A stretch of DNA of 64,000 bases from Owenia fusiformis (lineage: Eukaryota > Annelida > Polychaeta > Sabellida > Oweniidae): the NCBI GenBank assembly GCA_903813345.2, contig CAIIXF020000004.1, positions 17,469,513 through 17,533,512 on the forward strand, in the 5' to 3' direction. This document shows positions 42,342 through 64,000 of the stretch, piece after piece. Every line of letters begins with the position of its first letter. The stretch's first letter is position 1. The position numbers and the translations under genes were made by a program. The notes beneath the pieces are model-generated. The model was not told the DNA's origin. It did no database searches and saw only the letters and a list, made by a program, of their open reading frames with translations.

Positions 42342-42402
42342 ATGAAACAAAATACACCAACTAAGAGAGTGGATGTTGTAATAATAGGGGCAGGATTCGC
42401 AG
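42342..42402 (+). CDS. MAO: MAO exon 1
   Basis: [20 protein letters not shown] plus the first base of Gly; donor GTATAA. N-terminal beta strand and most of the dinucleotide-binding GxGxxG loop. Short non-FAD N terminus of about nine residues, as in other MAOs. Confidence 0.88.
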
Positions 42403-45400
42403 GTATAACACATAATATAATTAAATGAAACGAAAAGCTTCAATTTGGTAACGTTCGATCACCGTCTAGTGAAGTTTATTTCGAATAAATATGATTTATT
42501 TTCTGCTGTGCAAAGTTCAAATCCCCCTCCCAATTAGCCTAGATCTAGAGTCCATTTCACTGCTTCATTTCGTCAGTAGAACGGCAAAAATAAGAAATTG
42601 GGAGACCATTGTGCAATTATATATGGAAAAGTATATTCATAATGTACATGAATGACATTTGTATATCTTGGATTGCTTCTAGTTTGGCTTATAAAGTGTG
42701 TGGCCTCTTATATTTGGATGTTTCTCTGCCTTACTCACTTCGAGAGCCATGTTAGATTTTGAAACTTATGGCTCTCAAACGGAGAAGTGAACAGCTGATC
42801 AATAGCAGTGGCGTAGCTACGTGTACGCCAAGTACGCCCAGGCGTACTCTTAAGGAAAAATAAAATTTACCTGATTAATTGTGATGAAAAATAAATGTTC
42901 CAGCTGATAACGTCATAGATTAATATAGACGTGCCCTCTACTACCCGTTCCTTGATCATATGAACGCTGAAATCCGTGATGTACTCGTCCATCCTAAAGA
43001 GAGATTTGAAGCACAAAATCTAATTCCAGGCAATCTGCCAAATTTGAACGTTGGGAACTTGTTCGACGGATTCGAAACACACTTTGAGGCTGGAGATGTA
43101 CAAGAGCTTCAAAATGAAGTAACACGGTGGAGCCATAAATGGCAACAAGTTGCTCAAGGGAACATCCCAGCAACTCGTACTGACACTATTCAACAGACCC
43201 CCCAGCCTCTTTACCCCGATGTCTACACGTGTTTGGTCCAGCTGCTAACATTGCCAGTATCCACTTTCGTGGCTGAACGAAGCTTTAGCAGTTTGAAACG
43301 CATTAAGTCATACTTGCGTTCCACAATGAACGAGGAAACACTTTCTTCCTTGGCCATGATACATATCCATAGGGAACAGGATATAAACATTGATACTGTT
43401 ATTGACATGTTCGCAAATGCTAAAAAACAGAAAGATAAAATTTACTCTATAGAATCACGTACAGATTGTTAAGATCCGAAATGGAGTTGAGACGGTCGTG
43501 TAACTGTTCTTTTATTGTTAATCATCTTGTGAGCTAGATAAAAACAAACACAGAAAAAATAATAATATTTCATGGAGAATGACCACAAAAGCTTAAAACA
43601 ATGAGCCTCATACATACAGTTTTAGGTAGCCTAAAAAATAAAATCGCCTTGATAGACGGCTTCGATCGCCGATGGCATGATTATATAGAATCTGTCTATT
43701 TTGTTTCCCGAATATTATATGTTAATACAGTTAATTCATTCCCTTTAAAAAGCTATGTCAAAATGATCAAACAATACATATTTCCTTCATTGAATTAAGC
43801 CGTGTTTAGTGTGTCCCCTATCTTCTGAACACCCGGGATCTTCCTATTTTATGGAACCATCGTTTTGTTAATTTTGATAAAACCGGGAAATCATACGGGC
43901 GTACACTCGCAAAATGGGCTAGCTACGCCTCTGAATAGTGACCTTTGAAATTGAATTAAGTCGATCCGCGGCTTACTTTTGGTCTCTAACTGTGTCTTAC
44001 ATCAGTATCATCAATCCGTGTAAGTATTGGAGCGCTGGAGTACTTCTTTTTCGATCAAGACTTGTAAATTGTTCATCGAGTTAAAGTTTTACAGACCTAT
44101 TTCCAATATGGCGGTTTGCTAGGTGCGAGATACGCAACGAACGAAATGAATTTTGAGAATTAGTTAGGTTCGGACAACCTCCGGAGATTTACGAAAATGT
44201 CCGAGCAGAAACCGCCATATTGGAATTTGGCAGTTAAACGATTCACTCGACTAACAATTACAAGTCTTGATCGAAAAAGAAGTACTCCAGCGCTCCAATA
44301 CTTACACGGATTGATGATACTGATGTAAGACACAGTTAGAAACCAAAAGTAAGCCGCGGATCGACTTAATTCGATTTCAAAGGTCACGATCATTGAGCTG
44401 TCCAAATGCTCCGTGGGAAAGCTATTATATCAAAATCCAAATAGCTTTCGCAGGAAGTAATCTCTGCCATGTTATTTTCAATAAGATTAACATGGCTGAA
44501 ATTCTTCAAATTACAAGACGGCACAGGCTTATTGCACAAAAAACTAAAAAATCTGAAATATACAAATGTCATTCATGTACATTATGAATATACTTTTCCA
44601 TATATTATTGCACAATGGTCTCCCAATTTCTTATTTTTGCCGTTCTACTGACGAAATGAAGCAGTGAAATGGACTCTAGTCTCACTCTAGACCATCTAGG
44701 CCTAGCTACTTATTCCAGACTGTCTTTGATCATCATCATCGTCAACATCAGGTTACATATGATACAAACATTTACTGATCACTACATCGCATTTCATCTC
44801 AATATCAAGACTGACTGTGTACCCCCCCCCCTCATCCATCCCCCTGTGTACTTCATCTTGTTGTGGGAAGGTGAAATATTTTATACACAGGCTTGAGGCT
44901 AGATTTCAAATTCCAATACAAATCCTTCCTTGAGGAGAGGATATACGTTCAACCTATGAACTCCTGTAGCGCTATCTAATTCAGGAACACTACATATACA
45001 TTGTACCAAAGATTGCTGTTACTTTGTTAAAGAAATCAATCAGGAATCATATATCAAGGCGCTTCCTAGTGAGGACTAAGCTGATTCGGTACAATTACAG
45101 TACTGTCAACCCCCAAAGATTTTCTCGCGGGACAGATTTTTTAGACCCAGTGCCCAAAATTCGCGGGATTTTGCGGGACATCTACTAAATTGGCGGGATT
45201 TCGTGGGACATTTAAGGGATTTGCGTGATTGCGCTTATAGGCCAATTTTTTTTTATCAAATTCGCGGGATTTCGCGGGACCATTCGAGGGACAAACACCC
45301 TAATTGCGGGACAGTTAACAGGTTTACCAGCAAAAACTTCATAGAGGGACAGATTTTCTAGAAAAAGTGCCCTAAATTTGCGGGATTTCGCGGGACATCC

Positions 45401-48400
45401 ACCTAAATTTGCAGGATGTCCCGGGACATTCAAGGGATTTGCGTGATTTGGACTAATGTAAAAGCGTGTAAAAGTACTTGAATCAAACTTTCAGATACTG
45501 ATTAATCAAATAATGCATCGTTACATTGTAACTTAAATAAACGTCAACATAATTTCACAAAATACGCATAGAAATATTATTAAACTTTATTGTAATTTAT
45601 CAAAAACAAAAACCATGCTTGAGGTGTGAGTATCGTAATCTAACACGAAATTCAAAAATTTGGAACAATACTTTGCACTTCTCTGCTTCTGGCGTCGTGA
45701 CCAACTACTACCATACTGTAGGCATGGGCTTTCAATTGAAAGCCCATGATATAGGGGTTCGATTAATCTACATCAAATTATAGGGAATGAGGTTACTTTT
45801 CTAGATAGGGTTTGTAGAAAAAACCGGGTACCGGGTAGTAAATCCTCCATGCTGGGTTCAAACTTTTTTCTTTTTTTTTATTCCTTCATTCTTATTTATG
45901 TACATGTAAATGTAAATATAAATATGTACATGTAAATGTAATGCAATAATAATATAAATAATATTTACGTAGACAAACTTGGTACCCGGTCGAAAAACCG
46001 GGTACCCAAAAAACGAAATATACGAATATACAACATAATTAGATCATTAGAATTAGATTTGTTTTGAATTTACAAAAATGTAACTTCCTTCAAAATTGAG
46101 CTAGAAGCTTCAAATAAAAAGCATTTTAAGCCTCTTTTCTTCCTCTATCATCATGGTCATATTTCCATTGGTAATGAAGGGGGAGGGGGTGCGATCGCAC
46201 CATCACACCCTCTCCTGGCTACGCCAATGACATTGTAAGACGATTTGAATAACAAGTCAAATCAATTTTACTCTATTTTCAATGAGTTCGTATGTTGGTA
46301 CGTGAACATAACCAATGAAAATATGGTCATGACGATAGAGGAAGAAAAGAGCCTTAAAATATGCTTTTTATTTGAAGCTTCTAGCTCAATTTTGAAGGAT
46401 GTTACATACATTTTTGTAAATTCAAAACAAATCTTACACGTTTTCTGATAATCTAATTATGTTATACTCGTATATTCGTATTTTTCATTTTTTGGGTACC
46501 CGTTTTTTGACCGGGTACCGGGTACCAAGTTTGAACCCAGCATGGAGGATTTACTACCCGGTACCCAGTTTCTTCTACAAACCCTTTCTAGATATCAGCG
46601 TCCATTTATTGTAACTCGCGTTTGCTAACATTTGCTCAGTTCTGAGATGAAGGCCACACGGATAGTAAAAAGGCCAACATTGGAACTATTTGTGACCTAC
46701 ATCCCTATTGTCGTAATTAAAATGAAAGTTGAACCCTTCCTCTTTATTTTGATACCAAACAACAGCATGCTAGGTACTTGAAATTAGGTAAACTTTACTC
46801 CTCAAAAGTGCAAAAACTTAGCTTCTTATATAAGATAAGATAATCACCATATAGGGGATTGCAACAATTTCGGAAATTCGCGGAGGTCGAAAGCCACATT
46901 TGCGGGACTTCGCGGGACATTGCGGGACACGCGAATTAGCCTAATTTTGATCGAATTCGCGGGATAATCCCGCCATTCGCGGGACACTTGACAGCTCTGC
47001 AATTATTATGTTCCGGGTATTATGTATTCTATCCAGACTGTACTGTACAAAGGATTGAATATACTCAATTCAGACTGTCATACTGTATTCATGAGCTTGA
47101 GTATACTCATTCAGACTCTCCTAGCTGTTTATGAGCTTGAGTACAGTCCACACTCTTATTTATGACTTTGAGTATCCTCAATCCAGACTGTCTTCTTTAT
47201 GGTCTTGAGTATACTCATTCAAACTGTCTTGTTTATGAGCTTGAGTACAGTCCACACTCTTATTTATGACCTTGAGTATACTCAATCCAGACTGTCTTCT
47301 TCATGGTCTTGAGTATACTTAATCAAGACTGTCCTGTTAGTAAGCTTGAATATACTCAATTCAGATTTTCCTGTTTATAAATAGGCTTGTTTATATTCTT
47401 CAGTATTCTCAATCAAGACTGTTCTGTTTATGAGCTTGAGTACAGTCCACACTCTTATTTATGACTTTGAGTATACTTAATTCAGACTGTCCTGTTAGTA
47501 AGCTTGAATATACTCAATTCAGATTTTCCAGTTTATAAATAGGCTTGTTTATATTCTTGAGTATTCTCAATCAAACTGTCCTGTTTATAGGTTTGAGTAT
47601 TCTCAATCCAGACTGTCTTGTTTATATTCTTGAGTATTCTCAATCAAGACTGTCCTGATTATATTCTTGAGTATTCTCAATCAAGACTGTCCTGTTAATA
47701 TTCTTGAGTATTCTCAATAAAGACTGTCCTGTTTATATTCTTGAGTATTCTCAATAAAGACTGTCCTGTTTATAGGTTTGAGTGCTGCTAGGCTCCTCAA
47801 TGAAGAAGGTCTGGATGTTGTTCTCATAGAAGCAAGGGATAGAGTAGGGGGGAGAATACACACAATCAGGGTGAGTAGATGCAATGCCATAGCAACGATA
47901 TCTTAAGGGGAGGGGGTTGCAATGAGGTTATCAATGAGGCAAAAAACTAGGATTTCACATTGGGATACAGCGAGGCCTGAATGGATGGCTTCTGTATAGC
48001 CCTACAAGCTTCAAAGTGAATCCTCTTTCAAAGTTTCAAATGTTGGGCCGACTCCGGATTCTATCCCATTTACTAAAATTTATTTCTATTTAGGACCCTG
48101 TTATAAACTACACAGAGGTAGGAGGAGCCTATGTTGGGCCTACTCCAGATTCTATCTCATTTACTACAATTTAATTCTCTTTTAGGACCCTGTTATAGGC
48201 TACACAGAGGTAGGAGGAGCTTATGTTGGACCCACTCCAGATTCTATCCTATTCACTACAATTAAATTCTCTTTTAGGACCCTGTTATAGACTACGCAGA
48301 GGAAGGAGGAGCCTATGTTGGGCCCATTTCAGATTCTATCCTATTTACGACAATTTAATTCTATTTCAGGTCCCTGTTATAGGCTACACAGAAGTAGGAG

Positions 48401-51400
48401 GAGCCTATGTTGGGCCCACTCCAGATTCTATCAGTATCCCATTTACTACAATTTAATTCTATTTCAGGACCATGTTATAAACTACACAGAGGTAGGAGGA
48501 GCCTATGTTGAGCCCATTCCAGATTCTTTCTTATTTACTGTAATTTAATTCTATTTCAGGACCCTGTTATAGGCTACACAGAAGTAGGAGGAGCCTATGT
48601 TGGGCCCACTCAGAGACGCATGCAAAGACTCGCTAAGGAATTTGGAATGGAATGGAAAATTGTTCGAGAAGTAGAGAAGACAGTCCTCAGTTCAAAGGTT
48701 AGCATTTCAAATTGTAGCGGGCTATAGACATTGGCAGACCACGTCCACACTACATTGTGCCAAAATACAATCCTATTTGAAAAATGGGCCTCAGACATGT
48801 TTTGGTCATATTTTTCACATGTGGGAGATGATTGTCCTTTTGTCAACTTCAAGATCTGCCCTAAATGAAAATAAGGTATAATATGAGGTTATATAATGGT
48901 TCTTTCTGTATCACGCGGTAGGATCTCTTCGGGACGTATCGAAACCACTCCGTCCCGAAAAACCGTTAATTTGAATTTAAAACCTACCCCAGTGTTTGAA
49001 AATCAAGGATTGCGAGTCTCACACTTCACCGTTTTTCTTCAAACTTGTTCCGTACAAAGCTTCACAGAAATACCTTTCAGTCGATACATTGTTTTCGTGT
49101 ACAAAGTACCTCGTTTTAGCGGCGTTTTGGTCCCCAGCTGTGAGATAAAGCAAATTTTCATAACTTTCAACTGTAAGTCAAGTTATCTCGCCAGTCTTTT
49201 ACCCATTCTCGCCCATAATTTCAGAATGGACTCCCATTACAACCTTCCATCGCTACGTCTTGATTTTTGGGCATCAAACGCAGCAGTTTCTAAATCATCC
49301 ACACATCTCTTCAAATTTGACCAATACGCCCCGTCATCTTCCACTACGCCCCGCCGAGTCTATCACTTTACACGTAGAGTTGCATTCTAAAACAATTTGT
49401 CCATCGATGTGTCCGTTTGTAGGTTGCCATTGTCGATTCTAAATACCAATCGGATTGTGTTTTAAGATTTACCCATTCTTGTCCATTTTCAATATACCTA
49501 TAATAGGGTGGTCCAAAATCTCCCTAAAATTTAGATTTCCCGATATTGCAATATAAAGATTTAAATTACTGAACAACTGAAAATATTTTTAAGAAACGTT
49601 TAAAGTGCCCTATCCTTGAAAAAATGTGAAAATGCGAAAGGATGGGTGATGTCAATTATATTATTTTCAGCATAACGTTAGAAACATGTATCATTTTATA
49701 TGGTACACGTTTCATAATGTAATCCAATGGAATCATACAGAAGAAAGGTTGACACACAACAGTTAAAATCTTTATATTACATTATCAGACCAAGTCAGTA
49801 GATGTTGTTTATATACCAATTAGTGTTGTATGATGATGCATTCTTTATATGAATCTAGAAACGTTTTTGTGCCAATATTGCTCAATTTTTATAACATCTC
49901 CGTTATTTTGAAATTAAGCGTGGCAAAGTTTCCCGATGGATTTAGCTAAAAAAAGTGGTGCCTGTAGGGTTATTGAAAATCATACATGATGAAGAAAAAA
50001 TACATATTCCTGAAATACAACAGTTTAATTTTGAGTTATAAACCATTTATGAAAACGGCATATTTGTCAAAATTACCAAAAGTTCAAGTGAGACGCGTGG
50101 CAAAATTTCCCAGGGGTCTAGAGTGGAAATATTTGTACCAAGAGTCAATTTGTAACTAGAATCTATCAGATGACAGATTTTTGGAAAATTTTGCAGATTT
50201 GGACAACCCTAACCTATAACTTTGTTGAACCTGAAGAAACGTATCAACTTTTTGTTAAATAAAGATAGCAAATTCAGCTGTCTACTGTACCTAACTTGTA
50301 CTTTTTGCTAGTACTCAGATTGATGGATATCCTGTCGTATGACATGCGACAAACACCGGTGTAAAAGCGTAGGTGGTCCTATCAAATTATGGTCCTAGTC
50401 TCTATTGATTTATATGGTGACCTGATTACAATTATTTTCCTTATTATTTATACACAATCAGGGCTAGAAAGGGCCGTTAGGAAAGGGGACCATAATCCCC
50501 AGGGGACCATAATTTCTTTCACACCGGCTTTGTTAGTACTTTGCCTTGGATGTCATACAGTACATTTACACTGTGGCATGATTTTTAACTCATATCTTTC
50601 GTTATACCATACAAAATTACTTACTCCATGCAATGGATATATCATTTGCGGGTAACTTTCACTTCTGTTTGAAGTCCAATTACGCTCGGAAGAAAAGCTA
50701 TTGAAAATGGCGCCGGCGTATCATACTTCAAAATGTACCACTTCTTGTTTAACTTTCTAATGGCACGATATAGTGACACGATGATATTTACAAATGGTTT
50801 CAGCATAACTATGAAGGTATAAATGAGATGTTGATGTATTTGGTCTTTTTAATTCTTTTATAAAAAATAATGTTTAATTTTTTTGTCCGCTGTGACGGAG
50901 CAGTTGCAAATGTAAACTGTGAAAATGCTCCGTCACAGCGGACAAAAAATATTAATATTATTTTTTATAAAAAAATTAAAAAGACCCAATGCATTAATAT
51001 ATCATTAATACATTCAGAGTTATGCTGAAAACATATGTTAATATTATCATGTCACTGTATCATGCCATTAAAAAGTTAAAAAAGAAATGGTACATTTTAG
51101 AGTTTGATACTCTGGCGCCGTTTTCAATAGATTTTACTCCTAGCGTTATTTGACTTCAAACAGAAGTGAAGGTTACACGCAAATGATATATCCATTGCAT
51201 GGAGTAAGTAATTATCTTTGATATAACGAAACATATGAGTTAAATAATAAATCGTGAAGCATGTTTTTATGAAAAATAGCATGCTCCGTCACAGCGGACA
51301 AATCTTTCGATCCCTGCCTGTGTTGATAAAGGTAGATAGAAGTTTTATTTCAAAGGATGAATTTTAGTAAGCGTCCCATATTGTGACGTCATAGAGTTTG

Positions 51401-54400
51401 AAAAATAGAATCTGTTGACAACGACCTTTTTTGCTCATTTTTTGTTACCTTCAACTTTTCAGGTGTACATTAAACAAAAAATACGAGATCAATTTTTAAT
51501 AAATCATACATGATTATTTTGCTCTTAAACTCTAGTTTATTAATAAATAGTTGATTTTGTTCGCAAAAGTATGTGTTTTTTGTTGTATGTGGAAAAGTGG
51601 AGGACGAAAGGTTTTCAAAATTCATTAAAATAGGGCAAATTTACGCCATTCGCCTATTTTCAAGCACAGCAACACGTATATTTGTTTCACCTAAAATATC
51701 TTTTTGCGACACGTCATAGAATTAAGCAAATAGTGTTATTATCATTTAAGTAGTAACTGCATATGTTTAAAACCACTCTGTTTAAATACAGGTAAATAAA
51801 TAAATATGATGCAATGAAAATTGAAGCTTTCTGTCGAGAGCAATAGTCATCACAATAGTATAGCGTTTTTTCTTTTACATGTTACTTTTTGTACATCATT
51901 GATTGATCCGCTCTAATCTGCCCTCGGCCGATAATTTATAAATTATTTATGTTGAACATTAGCAAAACAGGATTCCAGATTTTATTGTGTTTCAAACCAG
52001 ACACTTGGTTTCCTCACAAAATCAAATACAGGACAATTACATATAATTAAAGTTAAAAAGCAACATCTTCACAAACATTTAAATCATCAATTTCATGCAA
52101 TCAGTTATAGTTATACTCCGTATGTATGCTAAACTTAAGACTGGTGTTAAGAATCGACCAAGGCAAACCTATGTAAAATTACACATCGATGAACAAAATG
52201 TTTTAGAATACAACTCCGCGTTTGTAGTCATAGACTCGGCGGGGCGTAGTGGAAGGTGACGGGACGTATTAGTCAAATTTTAAGAGATGTGTGGATGATT
52301 TAGAAACTGCTGCGTTTGATGCCCAAAAATCAAAACGTAGCGATGGAAGGTTGTAATGGGAGTCCATTCTGAAATTATGAGCGAGAATGGGTAAAAGACT
52401 GGCGAGATAACTTGACTTACAGTTGAAAGTTATGAAAATTTGCTTTATCTCGCAGCTGGGGACCAAAACGCCGCTAAAACGAGGTACTTTGTACACGAAA
52501 ACAATGTATCGACTGAAAGGTATTTCCGTGAAGCTTTGTACGGAACAAGTTTGAAGAAAAATGGTGAAGTGTGAGACTCACAATCCTTGATTTTCAAACA
52601 CTGGGGTAGGTTTTAAATTCAAATTAACGGTTTTTCGGGACGGAGTGGTTTCGATACGTCCCGAAGAGATCCTACCGCGTGTGTATATCGTGTTTATACT
52701 CGAGTGAGTATATAATATATTCACAAGTGAGCGTAGCGAACGAGTGAATATATTATATTCTCACGAGAGTATAAAATGCACGATATACAGAATGAACCAT
52801 TATATAATCTTATTATGCCACTCTATAAGTACAATTACAGTTGATTCGAACACAATCATAACAATTAAAAACCATAAAAATATCCCATAGCCAACTCAAT
52901 AATGCTGATGTTGATCTCGAACCATTTATGACGTGGCTTGATTCTAGGAAATCATGAAAATTTTCATGATTTTTCTTATTCATTAGTTCCCAGAATGCAC
53001 TTCTACAGTGGTATACGCTGGAGTGTATACGGAGGAGTTGTATACGATGAATGACGATATACCACTCTCCACTGTATATCGTTGTTATAGACCCATGTTA
53101 TACAACAGTAATTGGACTTAGAGTGGTATAAAACCCCTTATATAAAAGTTATATAATAATACAAAGTTTTTTGATCATTAAACTGGTAAATCTGAATAAA
53201 CTTTGTAAAGAACTTGATATTACTTGCTTATACATTAAAACTAGTCAAGTGGAACAGGAACACCTTTGTATGTGGAACACCTTTACAGGTGGAACAGGAA
53301 CACCTTTGTATGTGGAACACCTTTACAGGTGGAACAGGAACACCTTTACAGGTGGAACAGGAACACCTTTGTATGTGGAACACCTTTACAAGTGGAACAG
53401 GAACACCTTTGTATGTTGAACACCTTTACAAGTGGAACAGGAACACCTTTGTATGTGGAACACCTTTACAAGTGGAACAGGAACACCTTTGTATGTGGAA
53501 CACCTTTACAAGTGGAACAGGAACACCTTTGTATGTGGAACACCTTTACAATTGAAACAGGAACACCTTTGTATGTGGAACACCTTTACAAGTGGAACAG
53601 GAACACCTTTGTATGTGGAACACCTTTACAAGTGGAACACTACATAGTCTCTAGTTTCATTGACATATAATGTTTATCAAACCTTCTGAGGTGGAACACT
53701 TTATAAGAGGAACACTTTTTAGGGGAACCAAGGTGTTCCACTTACAGAGGTTCTACTTATTGCACATGTTTTTCTGTTTTCCAGACTGGATGGCAAACTT
53801 ACAAAGGAACAATACCTATTATCTATGATCCTATCAAAATATTGGACATGAACAACATATTTCAGATGTTGGAAAAGATGAGTGAAGAGGTAAGCTAATG
53901 TATCAATATTAAAAGACCCTGTGGAAATGAAAGTATTGACCCGTGGGAATTATGGGTCTCCCTTTTATATGACCCATATACAGTAGGCTAATATACTAGA
54001 AGACTGACTTGGAGCTGGATGGCTGAGTATAATTAAATAGAGTCAATATTAAGGGACCCTGTGTAAATGAAAGTATTGACCCGCTGGAATTATGGGTCTC
54101 CCTTTTATATGACCCATATAGGCTAATATACTAGAAGACTGACTTTGAGCTGGATGACTAAGTATAATTTAAATAGAGTCATATTGTAATTGTAACTAAA
54201 ACTAAGATCCTTTGCCCCTCCTTCCTTTGTCTGGACTGTTCGATTCTTCAGAAAATAGTCATAAGATGGAATGAGAGAATTTTGACAATTTTTCAAGCCA
54301 TTAAAACTTTCTTTCAACTTGTCTCTGGTCAATCTTGTCAATTTAAGTTTTATTCTCCTCACTGTCAAGTTTTCAGGTACATCTAATAGTATAAGCACTT

Positions 54401-57400
54401 GTCACCCGATTTCAGATCCCTGTAGAGGCCCCTTGGAAGGCTCCACATGCTGAGGAATGGGACAGTATGACAATGAAGGAATTCATGGACAAGCATTGCT
54501 GGACAGAGTAAGCATATACTTACTTGAATATGTCACACTGTACCTTTATGTCACACTTTATTTGAATATAAACCACATTTAGATAGCAACACAATAGAAT
54601 GAACTGTCATTTATTTTTAAGAATAATCAGCTATAACAAAGTGGGGTGAATTATTTGTCTATTGTTTTTCAAAAATGAACACTTGTCAAGCTATCCAAAA
54701 CCAGTGTGGCACAAAAGAAGATTGACTTTCACATGCTGTGCACTAAAGCTGAACTAACTATACCCTATTTACCCTTTCAATAGTTGAATTGTAAACACAA
54801 AAGAAATCAAACTTTAAACTCTACATACCCTTTTAAATGCAGTGCACTGAAGCTGAACTAATTACACCCACTCACTTCTCAATACACTTACCTCATAGTC
54901 AATACAAAAGAAATCAATTTTTCCTAAAATTGGATTATGGACCACTTACCTTTGAGTCAGAGTCAGTGCCCAGTGTGTGGTTTAAGTTAGATAAACAATT
55001 CATCTTGGGTCTTAGGAAAAAATAATGGCCTCGGGTCTTCGCCCTTGGCCATTATTTTTTCTAATCACCAAGACACATTGTTTATCCATTACATATATGT
55101 TAGACTTCATATATTAGACTTCATGTATTAAATATGTCACATTGTGCTTTATTTAATGTCACATTATATCTATATGTCACACTATACTTGAATTTATACT
55201 ATACTTGAACTTTTATGTCACACTGCACTTGAATTTTTATGTCACAATACATCTGTCAGACTGTATTAAATATGTCACATTCTGCTTAACAATAAATTAT
55301 AGTGAAATCAGCAAGGAAAATAAGTAAACTGAATACATGTACACATTTATTTATTATAGTCAACAATAAGGATAAATATTGTTTAAGGAAGCTCAAGTGG
55401 GGTCTTCAATTTACTAAAGGACAAAAAACAGCCCTTCAATACCTACCTTAACAAATGTAGCTGAAGTTTGTAACTTTGCAAAGCTTTTAGTTATTTGACC
55501 AGTCATGGGCCAATAGTGATGATTTCTCTATTGTTTTGTTTCTAATCTTCAATAACTGTCAGTGTCTTACTCCTCTCCCAATCAACTTGCGTTTTAGCAA
55601 TCAAATGGTCATAAAACCTTAGGAATAGAATAATGTTGTGAGAGTTAAGACCCTATGCATGATTGAACTTGATGGATACAATATGACAGTACAGTGCAGC
55701 CAGCTAAATGAAGACACTCAACCTGTTTTGTAGTGAGACTTACAAACTACATACCATGAGATACATTCATCCTATTGTTAAGGGAAAAGGTGTTGGACTT
55801 CGGGGAAAAATCTGTTTGATGTGGGGTTCATCCTCCATTCAGTGTTCAGATGTGGAAATGTATATAACACTGGATGGGCCCGTATCCAGAATGTGTATAG
55901 AAAGTACTTTCAAAGCACTCTCACGCTTTACCTTTCCTAAATGCTGCATGAAGGATCAGCCTCACACCCAACATCTTGCCCCGCACCCAACTTTCACATA
56001 TATGTGTTTGTTAGGTTCAGTAAGATTAACACAGCATTATTGTGTAAGGCCATTCTATGTTGTGAGGCTCATGAAGTGTCTGCACTCTACTTTATGTGGT
56101 ATATCAAGTGTTATGTGGTTTTAGGTTCAATAAGATTAACACATCATATTGTGTAAGACCATTCTATGTTGTGAGGCACATGAAGTGTCTACACTCTACC
56201 TTATGTGGTATATCGAGTGTTATGTGGTTTTAGGTTCAATAAGATTAACACAGCATTATTGTGTAAGGCCATTCTATGTTGTGAGGCACACGAAGTGTCT
56301 ACACTCTACCTTATGTGGTATATCAAGTGTTATGTGGTTTTAGGTTTAATAAGATTAACACAGCATTATTGTGTAAGGCCATTCTATGTTGCGAGGCACA
56401 TGAAGTTTCTACACTCTACCTTATGTGGTATATCAAGTGTTATGTGGTTTTAGGTTCAATAAGATTAACACAGCATTATTGTGTAAGGCCATTCTATGTT
56501 GTAAGGCACATGAAGTGTTTACACTGTACCTTATGTGGTATATCAAGTGTTATGTGGTTTTAGGTTCAATAAGAATAACACAGCATTATTGTGTAAGGCC
56601 ATTCTATGTTGTGAGGCACATGAAGTGTTTACACTCTACCTTATGTGGTATATCAAGTGTTATGTGGTTTTAGGTTTAATAATATTAACACAGCATTATT
56701 GTGTAAGGCCATTCTATGTTGTGAGGCACATGAAGTGTTTACACTCTACCTTATGTGGTATATCAAGTGTTATGTGGTTTTAGGTTTAATAAGATTAACA
56801 CAGCATTATTGTGTAAGACCATTCTATGTTGTGAGGCACATGAAGTGTTTACACTCTACCTTATGTGGTATATCAAGTGTTATGTGGTTTTAGGTTCAAT
56901 AAGATTAACACAGCATTATTGTGTAAGACCATTCTATGTTGTGAGGCACATGAAGTGTTTACACTCTACCTTATGTGGTATATCAAGTGTTATGTGGTTT
57001 TAGGTTCAATAAGATTAACACAGCATTATTGTGTAAGACCATTCTATGTTGTGAGGCACATGAAGTGTTTTCACTCTACCTTATGTGGTATATCAAGTGT
57101 TATGTGTTTGTTAGGTTCAATAAGATTAACACAGCATTATTGTGTAAGGCCATTCTATGTTGTGAGGCACATGAAGTGTTTTCACTCTACCTTATGTGGT
57201 ATATCAAGTGTTATGTGCTTGTTAGGTTCAATAAGATTAACACAGCATTATTGTGTAAGGCCATTCTATGTTGTGAGGCACATGAAGTGTCTACACTCTA
57301 CCTTATATGGTATATCAAGTGTTATGTGGTTTTAGGTTCAATAAGAATAACACAGCATTATTGTGTAAGGCCATTCTATGTTGTGAGGCACATGAAGTGT

Positions 57401-60400
57401 TTACACTCTACCTTATGTGGTATATCGAGTGTTATGTGGTTTTAGGTTCAATAAGATTAACACAGCATTATTGTGTAAGGCCATTCTATGTTGTGAGGCA
57501 CATGAAGTGTCTACACTCTACCTTATGTGGTATATCGAGTGTTATGTGGTTTTAGGTTCAATAGGAATAACACAGCATTATTGTGTAAGGCCATTCTATG
57601 TTGTGAGGCACATGAAGTGTTTACACTCTACTTTATGTGGTATATCAAGTGTTATGTGGTTTTAGGTTCAATAAGATTAACACAGCATTATTGTGTAAGG
57701 CCATTCTATGTTGTGAGGCACATGAAGTGTCTACACTCTACCTTATGTAGTATATCAAGTGTTATGTGGTTTTAGGTTCAATAAGATTAACACAGCATTA
57801 TTGTGTAAGGCCATTCTATGTTGTGAGGCACATGAAGTGTCTACACTCTACCTTATGTGGTATATCGAGTGTTATGTGGTTTTAGGTTCAATAAGATTTA
57901 CACAGCATTATTGTGTAAGGCCATTCTATGTTGTGAGGCACATGAAGTGTCTACACTCTACCTTATGTGGTATATCAAGTGTTATGTGGTTTTAGGTTCA
58001 ATAAGATTAACACAGCATTATTGTGTAAGGCCATTCTATGTTGCGAGGCACATGAAGTTTCTACACTCTACCTTATGTGGTATATCAAGTGTGGACAGGG
58101 CTTCCATAGACTCATCAGCATCACAAACGGCTCACAGGTAAGTACTAGTAGGTATACTATGTAAACATACATGCTGGTTCTGTAGTTAAACATTTTGTAT
58201 AAGATTGTAAGTAATTTTGTACCAGTTGGACTAAAACCCTATGTACCAGTGTGCTGATGATACTCTAAATGTTAAAATAGCTAAATTAGCACAAGTTATT
58301 TAAAGATTGTGAATTGGATCTTAAAGTGTAAAATTTTGGCTTTGTTCACCAAACTGTGACTTAACTGTCCTTCCTGACCCATCAGTGACCTTTGTCCAAT
58401 TAACCCTGAATCTCCTTAGCTTCTGTGGTGCCTGCAGTAGTAATTTATATGCTTTCTTCCACCTAGTCTTGTTAAAAGTGGAAGAATGCCTTTGGTATGT
58501 CCTAAAAGTGTTCCATGTAAAAATGTTTATAAGTGTACTTACAAATGTTCAAACAATGGGTCATGGGATTTTGCAGTTGTGCACTTACAGCTAGATGTTC
58601 ATAACTTCTTACAATGGGTCATGGGATTTTGAAGTTTTCCACTTACATATCTTCATACAATGGCTCATGGGATGTTGAAGTGTTCTTATTCCAGAGGAGC
58701 TCTTCTTCTACTCTAAATATAATGCACTTACATTCCTCTGCTCATTTACCCATAATGCCCATGCTTTGTATGCGATGGGTTTTCATCTTACAGTTGTGAC
58801 TTTCCTTGGCAAGAATGTATATATTAAATATATAAAAGTAAATAAAAATTACAAAAATGCATGCCATTAAAGATTATATATTTATTCATTTTTATATGAA
58901 CACTAATATTATCTATCTTAATCCATTGAGTGTATACAGTTTACTTTATAACCTTCCTGATTTTACTCTCATACTTACATCATGAGGTAAATTTTTTTCC
59001 ATCAACAGAAACAATAAAATATGTCCATATTATATAATGCATAACTCTAACAGTATCACTTGTGAATATTCCAGTTTTAAGCCCTGGACTCAGTGCAATG
59101 TTTAATGACCATTCCTTGAAGGTGTTGTTTCCAAAATTTGGACGAAATGCGCATCAAGTGTTAATTTTAGAAAACAATGTCTGAAAGGAATGGTTCGTGA
59201 TTGGTAATATAATGCATTGCACTTATATGAAATACTGTGTTCAGATTGGCTGGAATTGGACACACCTTGCGAGTGAATTATTTACCATTTGTTGAGGAAA
59301 ATCTCAAAATCATCAGGCCCTTACCTTTGGCCAGTTGACAATGTTTCATTGACACATTGATACACATTCAATTTATATTTCAAAAGCAAGAATATTCTTG
59401 TTTAACAGTTGCCATTTATAAAAATGTATAAAAGTTTAATATTGTGAATGATACATCTCCCATCTTACTTGCCCTAGCACTCCACATTGTTCTACCACAT
59501 TGAATGACTTGGAACCAATTATTTCTGACTAAGGGAAAGTTAGACCCTTGGTATGGGCTTGAAGAATAATATCTTATCAAAACATTTTTTTATTCTGGGC
59601 ATTTATTCCAAATTTTAGATTTGCAAAGGAAGTATTGACTGCAGCTACAAAATCAATTAATTGCAATGAGCTACATGAGGTATCTCTTCTTTATAACCTT
59701 TTGGGGTTGAAATCTGGAGGAGGCATAATAAGAATAACATCCATAGAAAATGGAGCTCAGGTAAAAATAATGACAGGTTGTATTCCTATAGCCCATGTTA
59801 AAGACATGTGTATGTACTATAAGAGGCCATTGCTTGAACACCAGTTGTCCTCATTCATCATTTATGAACATTAATTGTTGTCTTTGAACATTCATCATTC
59901 AACATTTATAATCTCTGAACAGTAATTGTTTCTGAACATTAATCATATATGAACATTAATTTTTTTCTGAACATTCATCATATATGAACATTTATTTTTT
60001 CTGAACATTCATCATATATGAACATTAATTGTTTCTGAACATTAATCAAATATGAACATTAATAATAGTCCTTGAATTTTTTATTGTCTATTAACATTCA
60101 TTAAGTAATGACCTTTGATAGCAAGTCGCTACTACTGCCTTTATGGCTCGGGGGTAGAGCATCTGTCTTGTGAGCAGGGGGTTGAATTTAGCACATTCCC
60201 TTTCAAGTCTTGTATCTGGCTTGATGAACAACAGATCACCGGACGGACGTGCCCAATGGTCGTGACAAATATTTGTGAGATTCATTGTCTGTCTTCATTC
60301 AATGGTTATGAACATTTGTTGTCTACTGTACAAATATTAATCGTTCATGAAATTCACTGTTCATGGCATTCATTGTCTACTAACATTCATTTGATAACAT

Positions 60401-63400
60401 TCATTGAAAGATTCTATATCAATGACATCCAGTGTAGGAACATGTCGTTACTTTATCCTTGCACGTTACATAGTTACTATTTTATATACATGTAATGTAC
60501 ATGCACTTATAATGATCATTTTTCCTCTTCCTGCTTCCTCTCTCCAGATTTGTTCATATCCATTATGTTCAAGACTGCTATTGTTTGATTGCTTGTTTGC
60601 TTATTTGTTAGTTTGTTTGTTTATTCAAGTTGTATGCTTATTTATTTATTTATTTATTTATTCAATGTTTCCTTAATTGGTGAAGGTTTGTTGCTTTTTT
60701 AGCAGTGTTTATTATTGTTTTTATTTATAGGTATATAGGCTATAATAAGATATTGGGATATTGTGAAGGAAAATATTGATATTAACTGAGGCAGCAGGAA
60801 GGGGCTGAAGAAAGATATCAGTATTTTCCCCATGGATATATCTATCGATTATCTATTCATATTGTATTTATTCTATATTCTGATTTCTAGACCCCTGCAA
60901 CACTTCAGATGATGTGATTTAATCACAAAAATACTAATCTTAATATTCTTTTGCATACATGTATATATATTTATTTTATTTATACATTGGATTTAATGTA
61001 AATATTTTAACTTTATAATTTGATCATATTAAAAACTTTGTTTACACTACATGAGGTACCTCACAACCCATTTAAAATCATGACAAATTAAGATATATTT
61101 ATGGTCGTATTAAAAACGGCAAACATGTACTCAAAAAGTATAAAATCCTGGAGAGAATGCTGATTATCGATACTCTATTTAAGGAGAGGAAACTGATCGG
61201 GGGACTTTCAACACTGCTGGAGAGAATGGCAGAGACTCTAGGGGACAAAGTCCTGCTGTCACATCCTGTCAATCGTATTGAACAGAGAGAAAGTATTGCC
61301 AGGGTCTATTGCGAGAATGGAGAAATGTATGAGGTACATACAATAAGCTTTTAAGAGGTCTTTTAATGTAGTATCAGATCTGTAGTTATGTCCTGTCAAT
61401 CGTATTGAACAGACAAACAATATTGTCAGGGTCTATTGTGAGAATGGAGAAATTTATGAGGTACATACAATAAGCTTTTAAGAGGTCTTTTAATGTAGTA
61501 TCAGATCTGTAGTTATGTCCTGTCAATCGTATTGAGCAGACAGAAAATATTGCCAGGGGCTATTGCAAGAATTGAGAAACATATGAGGTACATACAATAA
61601 GCTTTTAAGAGGTCTTTTAATGTAGTATCAGATCTGTAGTTATGTCCTGTCAATCGTATTGAACAGACAAACAATATTGCCAGGGTCTATTGTGAGAATG
61701 GAGAAATTTATGAGGTACATACAATAAGCTTTTAAGAGGTCTTTTAATGTAGTATCAGATCTGTAGTTATGTCCTGTCAATCGTATTGAGCAGACAGAAA
61801 ATATTGCCAGGGGCTATTGCAAGAATTGAGAAACATATGAGGTACATACAATAAGCTTTTAAGAGGTCTTTTAATGTAGTATCAGATCTGTAGTTATGTC
61901 CTGTCAATCGTATTGAACCAGACAGAAAATATTGCCAGGGGCTATTGCAAGAATTGAGAAACGTATGAGGTACACATCTGTTATTGCCATCCATAATTTG
62001 TGTTTTCGTGATTGCAAGTAAATTGCTGGCATTTTCTAAAATGCTCTCTGGTAGACACTTAAACAAATGATTCTTTTAATGTCAATTCAGTTGTATTGTT
62101 TTATCAATTAGAAAAGTAAGTTCATACTCTGATTAATGAAACATTAATGTAAGGTGTGTTTAATCTGAGAAAATGTGGACGCAATCTTGAAACAATAAAG
62201 TTAAAAATTACATGTTTGGTTGAGATTTGGACAAAACATTTTAACATTGTGTTAAGCATTGATGTCTGAAACTTCATATTGGACTCATGAACTCACTTTT
62301 TTCTTTGTATTTCTCATACATTGTAGGGTAAACATGTGATCAGCAGTATACCTCAAGCGCTACTAAATAGAGTGAGATTTGTTCCACCGCTGCCACCAAT
62401 GAAACTACAATTAATACAAAGGATCCCAATGGGTTCAATAATAAAAACCATGATGTTCTACAAAACAGCATTCTGGAGAGACATGAGTAAGTAGAACACT
62501 GATTTATATAGAAACTTAGACTGCAGTGCAATGCCTTAGGGCATTAAGATAAGCCATCCATTAATTTGTATATCTGTCCATCCCTCTCTTCCTTCTTTGT
62601 CAAGGTGATAACTCAAATCCCACTCGTCAGAATGGATGCTTAAATTAAAGCTGTTTTTAAACACAATTTCTTAAACAAGGGCTGAAGAGAATTCTCTACT
62701 CTTAATAAGAAGATAGCTTAACCCTTCGCAGTGATGATAAACTTTCAAATTTAAGTGGCCAGGCTAAAAAAGATGTGGCTTCATCTATACTACTAAACTA
62801 CCCTAACTAAATCCAGGGTTACAAATGTGTTACCATGTGGTAACAAAAAATAAGGGGACATGCAAAGGTTAATTGTCTGCCTTAATGATTATTTCTTCTA
62901 GATCTAAGTGGCCAGGCTGTAAGTCATGATGGGCCAGTTGGGTACACAATGCCGGATGACTTTGCGGAGGAGAAGAATAGCACACCTGCCATCATGGGCT
63001 TTATTCTGGCCAATGAGAGCAGGGATATGTGTGACATGTCTAAAGAGGAAAGGTGTGTGAATGCAATAGCACTTTGTTTTATCCAGTAATACATCATCCA
63101 TATTTCCATGAAATAAATACGCTTCTAATGTGACCAAGTCAGCTTCTTTAACCCTTTCCCAACGTGAATATATGAGGAAATGTTGGCCTGGTGACTGATA
63201 AGTAAGAGCGGTTTTTAGCTAAAAACTGGAAATGATGTATACCCGGGACCTATTCTTTAAATTTTATCACTAAAATACAATTTTAACAAGCAATATCACA
63301 TGTCAACAACTAGTCAAAATCTGGTGTAAAAATACTGAATAGAACTGGAGACATTGTCATTTCATTGATGTATGGAAATAAAAATAGTGGTCCCAAAAGG

Positions 63401-64000
63401 AGCCTATCGTCCTGAAAGGTATTACGTAATAGGGCTCCATATGGAGCCTATCGTTGTGAAAGGGTTAGATTAAGCACTACCACATCAAACATAGAACATT
63501 TGATCAAATACAATTTTACATATTATATGTTACATGTACTTCCATATTCCAGGAAGAATGCCTTATGTAAACATTATGCCAAGCTGTTCAGGTGTGACAA
63601 GTTCCTGGAACCAATCTACTATGTAGAGAAGAATTGGATGGAGGAAGAATTCTCTGGGGGCTGCTACGTTAGCTCAATGCCTCCTGGGGTCCTCACAAAA
63701 TATGGCAAGTAAGTCACATATTCTCTGTTAGATGCTACGTCAGCCCAATGCCTTCTAGGCTCCTCACAAATTCACATACAGTATTCTCTCTGGGCTGCTA
63801 AATTTTTAGCTCATTGTCCATTTTACCTGAATCTGGTCTTACAATTTATATCAATGTGTCTCTGATATTGTCACATTCTTTGGATAACACTATCATGTAT
63901 CTATTTCAGATATTTGAGGGAACCTGTAGGAAAAGTGTATTTCGCAGGCACAGAAACGGCAACATATCACAGTGGTTACATGGAGGGTGCTGTCCAATCA
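42342..64000 (+). CDS. MAO: Monoamine oxidase, FAD-dependent (3' end beyond window)
   Basis: Eleven constitutive exon positions plus one alternative exon; the joined model gives 447 residues without a phase conflict, against about 520 in vertebrate MAO. Residues 11-31 hold the FAD-binding [17 protein letters not shown], with the third Gly split by intron 1. [28 protein letters not shown] and HEVSTLY follow. GSIIK carries the Lys equivalent to MAO-B Lys296 (301). SGGCY carries the Cys that binds FAD covalently (402) and a cage Tyr (403); SGYMEG has the second cage Tyr (440). The C-terminal mitochondrial outer-membrane helix is not yet reached. The enzyme oxidises biogenic amines, producing aldehyde, ammonia and peroxide. 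Exons 6 and 7 are alternative. Four junction-derived tandem arrays lie in the gene, and introns 1 and 3 hold large transposon nests. The ATG is the only in-frame start before the FAD motif in exon 1. Confidence 0.93.
42806..43933 (+). mobile_element. Internally deleted hAT transposon within element B
   Basis: Ends CAGTGGCGTAGCTACGTGTA and, inverted, CAGAGGCGTAGCTAGCCCAT, typical hAT termini. Flanked by AATAG on both sides (only 5 bp match, shorter than the usual 8). Encodes only the C-terminal part of a transposase. Confidence 0.78.
42935..43472 (+). pseudogene. hAT transposase C-terminal fragment
   Basis: Open from about [14 protein letters not shown] (42940) to the stop at 43470-43472. The stretch [20 protein letters not shown] followed by [16 protein letters not shown] is the hAT dimerisation domain. 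It resembles ZMYM/THAP-related hAT proteins. Catalytic N-terminal domains are absent, so it is a relic. Confidence 0.82.
45100..47000. repeat. GCGGGAC-rich repeat blocks around a foldback MITE
   Basis: Blocks 45120-45445 and 46870-46995 are dense in 'cgcgggac' and 'cgcgggatttcg'. The left begins 'actgtcaa' and the right ends 'ttgacag', so they may be two ends of one element into which 45808-46584 inserted. MAO intron 1. Confidence 0.45.
45808..46584. mobile_element. Mutator-like foldback MITE, second copy
   Basis: Left end GGGTTTGTAGAAAAAACCGG, right end its inverse, with repeated CCGGGTA. Exact 10-bp duplication TTTCTAGATA at 45798-45807 and 46585-46594. Interior is one long imperfect hairpin (for example 'gaagcttctagctcaatttt' inverted). 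No transposase. Confidence 0.8.
47030..47776. repeat. ~38-40 bp tandem array ending at the acceptor of MAO exon 2
   Basis: About eighteen degenerate units around 'gagtattctcaatcaagact' and 'gtcctgtttata'. The last units contain 'tcctgtttataggtttgagt', which is the true acceptor plus the first 8 nt of exon 2. Exon sharing is short but exact. Confidence 0.75.
47776..47870 (+). CDS. MAO: MAO exon 2
   Basis: Acceptor 'cctgtttatag', phase 1; donor GTGAGT, phase 0. Encodes [20 protein letters not shown] then [11 protein letters not shown], the FAD ribose-binding Glu and the DRVGGR motif of flavin amine oxidases. Confidence 0.93.
48040..48615. repeat. 92-bp tandem array built from the acceptor and start of MAO exon 3
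   Basis: Acceptor-plus-exon starts at 48094, 48186, 48278, 48370, 48468 and the true one at 48560; spacing is 92 bp, once 98. Each copies about 52 nt of exon 3 (GACCCTGTTATAGGCTACAC...) and then intron. A partial unit precedes the first. Confidence 0.92.
48560..48697 (+). CDS. MAO: MAO exon 3
   Basis: 138 nt, phase 0 to 0, donor GTTAGC. Encodes [20 protein letters not shown] then [30 protein letters not shown] is highly characteristic of MAO. Confidence 0.93.
48885..52805. mobile_element. 3.9-kb palindromic element in MAO intron 3
   Basis: Ends TTATATAATGGTTCTTTCTG and inverted TTATATAATGGTTCATTCTG. Arms of about 550 bp (48920-49440 and 52150-52675) are nearly identical inverted copies, for example 'cgggacgtatcgaaaccact'. 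The 164-codon ORF in the left arm has a shorter mirror in the right arm and no known motif. Contains a second palindrome at 50577-51252. Confidence 0.75.
50577..51252. mobile_element. Inner palindrome with 'tccgctgtgacggagca' core
   Basis: Arms of about 330 bp around a 15-bp loop ('gcaaatgtaaactgt'). The core word occurs inverted at 50886 and 50930 and again at 51282. Possibly a separate foldback inserted in the larger one. Confidence 0.65.
53255..53645. repeat. 40-bp minisatellite upstream of MAO exon 4
   Basis: About nine units of 'gtggaacaggaacaccttt' plus 'gtatgtggaacacctttaca'. Open in several frames only because of periodicity. It does not copy exon 4. Confidence 0.88.
53785..53889 (+). 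CDS. MAO: MAO exon 4
   Basis: Acceptor 'ctgttttccag', donor GTAAGC, phase 0 to 0. Encodes [20 protein letters not shown] then [15 protein letters not shown], matching the MAO region before 'APW'. Confidence 0.9.
53904..54185. repeat. ~140-bp tandem duplication in MAO intron 4
   Basis: Two copies from 'ggaaatgaaagtattgac'-type start to 'aaatagagtca', about 92% alike. Non-coding. Confidence 0.7.
54416..54507 (+). CDS. MAO: MAO exon 5
   Basis: Acceptor 'cccgatttcag', phase 0; donor GTAAGC leaves GA|. Encodes [20 protein letters not shown] then [10 protein letters not shown]. The split Glu is completed by G from exon 6 or A from exon 7, giving Glu either way. Confidence 0.92.
54690..55095. repeat. 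Duplication and hairpin in MAO intron 5
   Basis: 'aagctgaactaa' blocks at about 54746 and 54848 are duplicated. A hairpin at 54985-55090 centres on 'cctcgggtcttcgcccttgg' with arms 'aaaaaataatgg' and 'ccattattttttc'. No coding content. Confidence 0.5.
55095..56000. other. MAO intron 5, no feature seen
   Basis: AT-rich with repeated 'tatgtcacact' words at 55130-55270. The ORF starting 55708 runs into the array and is not supported. Confidence 0.4.
56002..58105. repeat. 110-bp tandem array built from the acceptor and start of MAO exon 6
   Basis: Nineteen copies, first exon-like start at 56015 and the true one at 57996; most units are exactly 110 bp. Each has 'ttttag' acceptor, then about 95-100 nt of exon 6 (to TATATCAAGTGT), then jumps back to the intron word 'tatgtggttttag'. 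Units are over 95% alike. None but the last has the rest of the exon or its donor. Confidence 0.95.
57996..58137 (+). CDS. MAO: MAO exon 6 (alternative form a, substrate-cavity segment)
   Basis: 142 nt, phase 2 to 0, donor GTAAGT. Encodes [20 protein letters not shown] then [20 protein letters not shown] and SITNGSQ. Aligns gaplessly with human MAO-B around residues 160-206; the gate residue (Ile199) is Ile here and Gln206 is kept. Confidence 0.92.
58140..59618. other. Intron between the alternative exons
   Basis: 1.48 kb. Holds direct repeats of 'caatgggtcatgggatttt' (58555 and 58612). No other feature seen; any docking or selector elements for exon choice are not evident by eye. Confidence 0.4.
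59619..59760 (+). CDS. MAO: MAO exon 7 (alternative form b, substrate-cavity segment)
   Basis: 142 nt, acceptor 'tccaaattttag', phase 2 to 0, donor GTAAAA. Encodes [20 protein letters not shown] then [20 protein letters not shown] and SIENGAQ. Gapless with exon 6 and about 45% identical (21 of 47). Gate residue equivalent to Ile199 is Thr; Gln206 is kept. Used in place of exon 6 it keeps the frame; used after it, it hits a stop within 14 codons. Confidence 0.85.
59870..60100. repeat. Degenerate ~28-bp tandem repeat
   Basis: Units around 'tgaacattaatcatatatga'. MAO intron after exon 7. No coding content. Confidence 0.6.
60135..60200 (+). repeat. Degraded tRNA-derived SINE fragment
   Basis: 'tggctcgggggtagagcatc' has the A-box layout, and 'tgtcttgtgagcaggggg' the anticodon-arm region. 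The B box (around 'gggttgaattta') is degenerate. A functional tRNA is unlikely. Confidence 0.45.
60200..61183. other. MAO intron, AT-rich, no gene seen
   Basis: Contains 'tgttt/atttattta' microsatellite runs at 60590-60662. Nothing else recognised. Confidence 0.4.
61184..61333 (+). CDS. MAO: MAO exon 8
   Basis: Acceptor 'ctctatttaag', 150 nt, phase 0 to 0, donor GTACAT. Encodes [20 protein letters not shown] then SHPVNRIEQ and ENGEMYE. Matches MAO 'ERKFVGGSGQ...' onward. Confidence 0.9.
61264..61970. repeat. 127-bp tandem array built from MAO exon 8 end plus its splice donor
   Basis: 'tcctgtcaatcgtattga' recurs at 61264 (true exon), 61391, 61518, 61645, 61772 and 61899, exactly 127 bp apart. 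Each has about 70 nt of exon 8, the GAG|GTACAT donor (the last unit GTACAC), and, except for the last, about 57 nt of intron. Confidence 0.93.
62327..62486 (+). CDS. MAO: MAO exon 9
   Basis: Acceptor 'catacattgtag', phase 0; donor GTAAGT, phase 1. Encodes [20 protein letters not shown] then [25 protein letters not shown] holds the flavin-proximal Lys. Confidence 0.92.
62902..63052 (+). CDS. MAO: MAO exon 10
   Basis: Acceptor 'atttcttctag', phase 1; donor GTGTGT, phase 2. Encodes [20 protein letters not shown] then [20 protein letters not shown]. Matches 'AIMGFILA' of MAO. Confidence 0.92.
63553..63708 (+). CDS. MAO: MAO exon 11 (covalent FAD site)
   Basis: Acceptor 'catattccag', phase 2; donor GTAAGT, phase 2. 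Encodes [20 protein letters not shown] then PPGVLTKYG. The Cys of SGGCY is the 8-alpha-S-cysteinyl-FAD attachment residue of MAO. Confidence 0.95.
63910..64000 (+). CDS. MAO: MAO exon 12 (partial at window edge)
   Basis: Acceptor 'atctatttcag', phase 2. Encodes [20 protein letters not shown] then [18 protein letters not shown] and SGYMEGAV are the C-terminal FAD and aromatic-cage motifs. His stands where vertebrate MAO has Trp before SGY. Confidence 0.93.

Follow-up and report, generated by a model that had tools for sequence, protein, structure and literature searches.

A MAO-family gene with two forms of exon 6

The 64,000-nucleotide stretch of Owenia fusiformis DNA analysed here (the window) carries on its forward strand a gene of the monoamine oxidase (MAO) family, which was rebuilt from the 61-nt coding part of exon 1 (42342-42402) onwards; this first region is 76% aligned with a sister MAO gene that lies on the opposite strand of the same contig (C4), about 0.54 Mb off at about 16.958-16.969 Mb. 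Exon 2 (47776-47870, 95 nt) encodes a FAD-binding segment and is followed by exon 3 (48560-48697, 138 nt), exon 4 (53785-53889, 105 nt), which supplies the entrance-cavity loop, and exon 5 (54416-54507, 92 nt). Downstream lie two forms of exon 6, here called 6a (57996-58137, form A) and 6b (59619-59760, form B), for which exon 5 is the common upstream partner and exon 7 (61184-61333, 150 nt) the common downstream partner. The remainder of the gene comprises exon 8 (62327-62486, 160 nt), exon 9 (62902-63052, 151 nt), exon 10 (63553-63708, 156 nt), which holds the SGGCY motif with the flavin-linking Cys and Tyr398, exon 11 (112 nt overall, from 63910 to the window end at 64000 and on to extended position 64021), and exon 12, the last, which lies outside the window on the same strand and was located by contig extension. 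Every splice site examined in the rebuilt gene is GT-AG, and the exon sizes fit those of human MAO, with two adjacent human exon pairs fused in the window gene. P0003 (252 aa; region 61184-64000), the protein recorded in the database for this genome, begins at a methionine inside exon 7; exons 1-6, and with them the exon pair, are therefore missing from the record, which says nothing about exon 6.

Neighbours within the gene, exons 6a and 6b are homologous, internal and equal in length, and they share their phases and have canonical splice sites. The initial annotation had placed them exactly: each is 142 nt long and bounded by AG and GT, with a codon split after base 2 on entry (phase 2) and phase 0 on exit. 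The identity of about 45% given there for the ungapped peptides also holds on counting, at 21 of 47 residues, and the nucleotides agree at 23/47, 27/47 and 15/47 of first, second and third codon positions, respectively. When introns between 6a and exon 7 were randomised with a second-order Markov model (n=1000) and open, AG/GT-bounded 142-nt frames were counted, the best match to 6a was 8/47, as against 21/47 for the real exon, and chance similarity of 6b was rejected.

Translation of the splice products bore out what had been claimed for the reading frame. Isoforms containing only 6a or only 6b are each complete and open over 523 aa, from the ATG at 42342 to a stop codon ending 1506 bases past the window. 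Joining 6a to 6b leads to a stop within 14 codons, and skipping both breaks the frame, giving ...HCWTERGN and a stop. Since joint inclusion and joint omission both break the frame, a usable mRNA can carry only one exon 6. In the proposed scheme, exon 5 would be joined to either 6a or 6b and then to exon 7, and mRNAs with both or neither form of exon 6 would be frame-shifted and presumably destroyed.

Enzyme identity and the substrate pocket

Both isoforms match the PF01593 family, with 178.4 and 176.8 bits against a cut-off of 19.8, and the nearest solved structures in a PDB search made with isoform A alone are MAO-B and MAO-A (1.5e-124). Aligned to MAO-B, isoform A has the SGGCY cysteine context, the SGYMEGA tyrosine and the GSIIK lysine, which we take to correspond to the flavin-linking Cys397, the aromatic Tyr398 and Tyr435, and the active-site lysine. 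A hydrophobic C-terminal tail is visible in the translated isoforms.

By alignment to human MAO-B, exon 6 corresponds to residues 160-206 (S160-Q206), in agreement with the initial annotation, which had also named Ile/Thr at position 199 and Ala/Ser at position 171 as differences between the two forms. The differences in the cavity go beyond these two positions. Of the MAO-B contacts listed in a docking study (Leu164, Leu167, Phe168, Leu171, Cys172, Tyr188, Ile198, Ile199 and Gln206; PMC9737692), all nine of which lie within exon 6, seven differ between 6a and 6b, and only 172 and 206 are the same. The residue list of that study also includes positions 102-104 and 119, which are carried by exon 4, and positions 316, 326 and 343, which are carried by exon 9 (PMC9737692). 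At positions 164, 167, 168, 171, 172, 188, 198 and 199, human MAO-B reads LLFLCYII, 6a reads NLLAIYLI, 6b reads VAASIGIT, and the sister gene reads IVSGAGMG. Summed by residue volume, these eight positions amount to 1326 cubic angstrom in human MAO-B, 1230 in 6a, 916 in 6b and 828 in the sister gene; the pocket residues are far smaller in the 6b-type exons, so that a wider cavity is predicted for them. Relatives were taken from the 120 listed of 1033 matches, minus the window gene's own fragment P0003; among these 119, Trp187 is present in 109 and Tyr188 in 107, and the pair is lost both in 6b and in the exon 6 of the sister gene. The substitutions thus point one way, towards an opening of the substrate pocket by 6b-type exons. 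Isoforms A and B would have their FAD-binding and catalytic parts in common and be set apart by the 47 residues lining the cavity. Isoform A would keep a cavity of normal size, whereas isoform B, with small residues in place of bulky lining residues, probably accepts bulkier or different amines.

The sister gene and other MAO genes in the genome

The genome holds at least three MAO-type genes, namely the window gene, its sister on C4 (16.96 Mb), and a canonical-like MAO on C3. In the last of these, exons 6 and 7 are read through in one frame, so that exon 6 alone cannot be swapped. The suggestion in the initial annotation that a single gene does in this animal what two genes do in vertebrates is, with at least three MAO-type genes present, too simple.

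A single exon 6 was found in the sister gene. It is of the 6b type, 142 nt long and of the same phases, matches 6b at 30/47 and 6a at 19/47 residues, and shares with 6b an identical donor start, GTAAAAAT. The short intron 5 of the sister gene matches the start of window intron 5 (54508-57995) joined to the end of the intron between 6a and 6b (58138-59618), as if a block containing 6a had been deleted there. No match to 6a was found in the sister gene, and hence no 6a array of the kind described below. Most simply, the split between 6a and 6b predates the split between the sister genes, and the sister lost 6a; alternatively, 6a may have been inserted into the window gene.

The two genes are unevenly similar along their length. 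At the DNA level, exons 3, 5, 7, 8 and 10 are 96, 99, 93, 93 and 93% identical between window and sister gene, as compared with 84, 72 and 78% for the pocket-forming exons 4, 6b and 9. With gap columns omitted, the introns directly 3' of exons 4, 5, 6b and 7 are identical at 87/90, 60/61, 47/50 and 23/23 positions, and those 3' of exons 8 and 9 at 9/11 and 30/38. Directly 5' of exons 4, 5 and 6b the counts are 28/39, 108/135 and 84/111, and 5' of exons 7, 8 and 9 they are 22/33, 23/28 and 21/30. Exon 6b (72%) is therefore more diverged than the 50 nt of intron that follow it (47/50), and about as diverged as the intron before it (84/111), which weighs against the exon-pair reading. This pattern is suggestive of gene conversion, which may homogenise parts of both sister genes, with selection sparing the pocket exons. 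A duller reading is that 6b, exon 9 and the upstream introns are simply unconverted background. In the sister gene, SGGGY stands where the window gene has SGGCY (the Cys397 context), and the Tyr326 and Phe343 positions are changed; possibly, its product is a wide-pocketed MAO that holds FAD non-covalently.

Constraint on the two exon 6 forms

Exons 6a and 6b are equally near to exon 6 of the 119 relatives, with means of 17.7 and 18.3 identical residues of 47. Between window 6b and the 6b-type exon of the sister gene, dN/dS was 0.30/0.56 (NG86). In a simulation of neutral change on both branches, with 40 nucleotide differences, an open frame and at least 30/47 identity were retained with P 0.0005-0.001. 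For the window branch alone, where the criterion was that a neutral 6b keeps its frame and its family-profile score, P was 0.026, 0.0008 and 0.0001 if one quarter, one half and three quarters, respectively, of the differing codons had changed there. A neutral test of the same style on 6a against 6b gave P 0.059, 0.001 and 0/20000 with the share set at a tenth, a quarter or a half, respectively. On these tests, 6b is under protein-level constraint in the window gene, weakly so (P 0.026) if only a quarter of the codon changes fell there, and 6a has been constrained over its longer history; the 6a test does not bear on very recent loss. When 6b and the exon of the sister gene were used as queries in region searches, in which 16 and 7 candidates, respectively, were scored, no 6b-like protein was found; these negatives are weak given a database clustered at 90% identity and an exact-word filter.

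These results bear on whether 6b could be a relic that has yet to decay, the functional mRNA using 6a alone. Such a state of affairs would fit the loss of Trp187-Tyr188 from 6b and the stronger donor of 6a, which scores 12.7, the best of nine, vs 7.7 for 6b (by a weight matrix), but it is unlikely, as the tests reject neutral drift on the window branch except where few of the changes are assigned to it, the 142 nt of 6b contain neither indel nor stop and retain intact splice sites, and Gly188 and the small cavity residues are common to the sister gene, whose sole exon 6 found is of the 6b type. It is more doubtful still that double inclusion is deliberate, with the pair tuning expression through nonsense-mediated decay and one isoform being the real protein. 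The stop that arises within 14 codons when both exons are joined would serve such a function, yet a poison exon needs neither a MAO-like peptide of 47 residues nor matching phases nor constraint. Taken together, 6a and 6b are very probably a real mutually exclusive exon pair in a MAO-family gene, whose isoforms differ in the substrate cavity. We infer that both isoforms are made, that the choice between them is regulated, and that substrate preference is changed.

Tandem arrays and splice-site strength

Exon 6a lies at the end of a tandem array on the forward strand (56001-58092), in which a 110-bp unit occurs 19 times. Each unit combines about 15 nt of acceptor with 95 nt from the start of exon 6a; the final one supplies the 5' 95 nt of the real exon 6a, and the 18 upstream copies, which the initial annotation does not mention, are truncated. 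Two other arrays on the same strand are similarly placed. A 92-bp array at 48040-48611 repeats part of the exon 3 acceptor with 5' exon 3 sequence, its last copy being the real exon 3, and a 127-bp array at 61264-61974 repeats partial 3' ends of exon 7 with donor-like sequence. The arrays thus straddle exon-intron borders, taking in the acceptor and 5' exon (exons 3 and 6a) or the 3' exon and donor (exon 7), and the sister gene has similar partial copies at its own exons 3 and 7. In 17 of the 18 truncated 6a copies (one with a 1-nt deletion was left out of the count), 13 distinct replacement changes, 6 silent changes and 1 stop change relative to the real exon were found, near the 72, 23 and 5% expected under neutrality. 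By these proportions the truncated copies, and not 6a itself, look unconstrained. The exon-straddling arrays look like passive expansions that may leave decoy acceptors behind.

The sole donor scoring above 6 within 56001-58200 is that of exon 6a. The 6a acceptor, situated behind 18 similar decoys, ranks last of nine for its pyrimidine tract (0.53). It could therefore be asked whether the decoy-acceptor array has recently disabled 6a, leaving the gene to use 6b alone, as the sister gene, in which there is no match to 6a, seems to do. This is very unlikely, given that the 6a copy at the end of the array has an open frame, the top-scoring donor of nine and the highest family-profile score (87.0 bits vs 77.9 and 81.1), and that constraint has acted on 6a over its longer history, the sequences that look unconstrained being instead the truncated copies; a very recent loss would still be compatible with these observations.

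The same exon in other animals

For all 7021 pairs among the 119 listed relatives, identity in exon 6 was compared with identity elsewhere. Seventeen pairs are at least 95% identical elsewhere, with a mean of 0.97 in exon 6, and the one flagged outlier is from abalone. The proteins P0050 of Haliotis discus hannai and P0098 of H. rufescens (isoform X2) are 0.99 identical over the rest of their length and 1.00 in both exons 5 and 7, but match at only 29/47 residues in exon 6. Their 18 differences in exon 6, as compared with 8 scattered elsewhere, form a block that begins at residue 160 and stops by 206. As this block coincides with the borders of exon 6, the same exon appears to be swapped in abalone, in a comparison that crosses two species and consists of protein records only. 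Mutually exclusive exons over the MAO cavity, the central proposal of the initial annotation, gain support from this record pair, as they do from the constraint on 6b and from the 6b-type exon of the sister gene.

A weaker case comes from scallops: Mizuhopecten X1 (P0047) and Pecten X2 (P0116), protein records from two genera, match at 28/47 (0.60) in exon 6, as against a mean of 0.89 (sd 0.07) for comparably diverged pairs. Two such pairs, both of MAO-like paralogues from abalone, come close to this low value (P0035/P0089, 0.64 with the rest at 0.83; P0031/P0040, 0.68 with the rest at 0.84), so that the scallop case could reflect faster evolution of exon 6.

The resemblance of the abalone pair to 6a/6b lies in the exon itself, two proteins that are almost identical elsewhere diverging over this one exon, within the same limits (residues 160-206). 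However, P0050 and P0098 belong to the canonical MAO group, unlike the window gene, and both keep Trp187-Tyr188 and agree at positions 171 (V) and 199 (F), so that the change to the cavity is milder than that between 6a and 6b. In the gene tree, the window gene falls in a set of 11 that includes Priapulus (support 95/88) and lies outside the named mollusc groups, and the affiliation with molluscs assumed by the initial annotation is unsupported.

In the amphioxus Branchiostoma lanceolatum, isoforms X3 (P0026) and X4 (P0022) are almost the same from exon 7 onward but diverge throughout exons 1-6. A different exon 6 is thus set on common downstream exons, and X3, like 6b, is without Trp187-Tyr188, but exons 1-5 differ as well, making this the replacement of a block and not of a single exon. 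By analogy, 6b could be part of a separate transcript that has a 5' half of its own, for which P0022 and P0026 provide the precedent. In the window, though, one set of exons 1-5 stands out, and no MAO-like stretch that passes the search filter is present between 6a and 6b, making a second transcript extremely improbable beside mutually exclusive use of 6a and 6b within one gene.

A broader reading is that exon 6 of MAO is a recurrent, swappable pocket cassette, found in this animal, in abalone, perhaps in scallops, and in block form in amphioxus. Substrate range would then be diversified by exon choice beside gene duplication, and cassettes would also be split between sister genes, with homogenisation sparing the pocket exons. 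We consider the chances of this reading to be evenly balanced.

How exclusion could work

A segment at 59130-59153 on the forward strand is complementary to the 6b acceptor at 20/24 positions and represents a candidate pairing segment with a putative regulatory role. A pairing this good was matched by none of 300 random sequences, and seven other acceptors tested reached 13-15; the pairing was chosen from three inverted repeats, and the comparison covers acceptors other than that of 6a. In the sister gene, where with a single form of exon 6 there would be nothing to choose between, no such partner for the 6b-type acceptor was found (best 13/24). The fold of a 541-nt region, however, has a z of -0.77, and its centroid lacks the 59130-59153 stem. 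Given the z of the fold, the pairing is a lead and not a mechanism. Steric block across a short intron is argued against by the 1481 nt that separate 6a from 6b. Incompatibility of spliceosome type was also considered and is unsupported, all sites seen being GT-AG.

Relation to known systems

Tandem homologous exons whose joint inclusion breaks the reading frame are described in human genes (PMC5740500), and a convergent origin of mutually exclusive exons has been described for orthologous genes (PMC9741552). The human exon sets described there resemble 6a and 6b in being homologous neighbours with compatible lengths and frames (PMC5740500, PMC9741552). An enrichment in ion channels and transporters is reported in one of the papers (PMC9741552). 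For 6a and 6b, splicing is a prediction. In the main texts of the two papers, the terms 'monoamine' and 'amine oxidase' are absent from PMC5740500, and 'oxidase' from PMC9741552. Among the matches listed in the open-access literature (titles and abstract starts), no report of an alternative exon 6 in MAO was found. The splicing arrangement itself is ordinary, and what is new, as far as the literature searched shows, is its location in the pocket exon of a MAO and its possible recurrence.

A parallel among enzymes is human CYP4F3, in which the homologous exons 3 and 4 are mutually exclusive and exon choice has been shown experimentally to switch substrate specificity. As in the window gene, homologous exons are chosen within an enzyme, but CYP4F3 is a cytochrome P450 of unrelated fold. 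In vertebrate MAO-A and MAO-B the fold and the cavity are the same as here, with the difference that they are two genes, whereas here the choice would be made between exons of one of at least three genes. MAO holds a central place in amine signalling and is among the major targets of drugs; its pharmacology in vertebrates is founded on the differing pockets of two genes. Should the pocket be exchanged by splicing in invertebrates, a single gene could adjust the breakdown of amines from one tissue to the next. Natural pairs of enzymes that are identical outside 47 residues would then also be available, ideal material for finding out which residues determine the choice of substrate.

Other features of the window

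No Rfam family was detected in the window at gathering scores. Open frames at 31914-33200 and 42924-43472 resemble a reverse transcriptase and the end of a hAT-type transposase. Intron 3 contains a long inverted repeat with ends matching by eye (about 48930-49390 and 52190-52690), perhaps a DNA transposon, and, at 53249-53639, a 40-bp minisatellite of about ten units.
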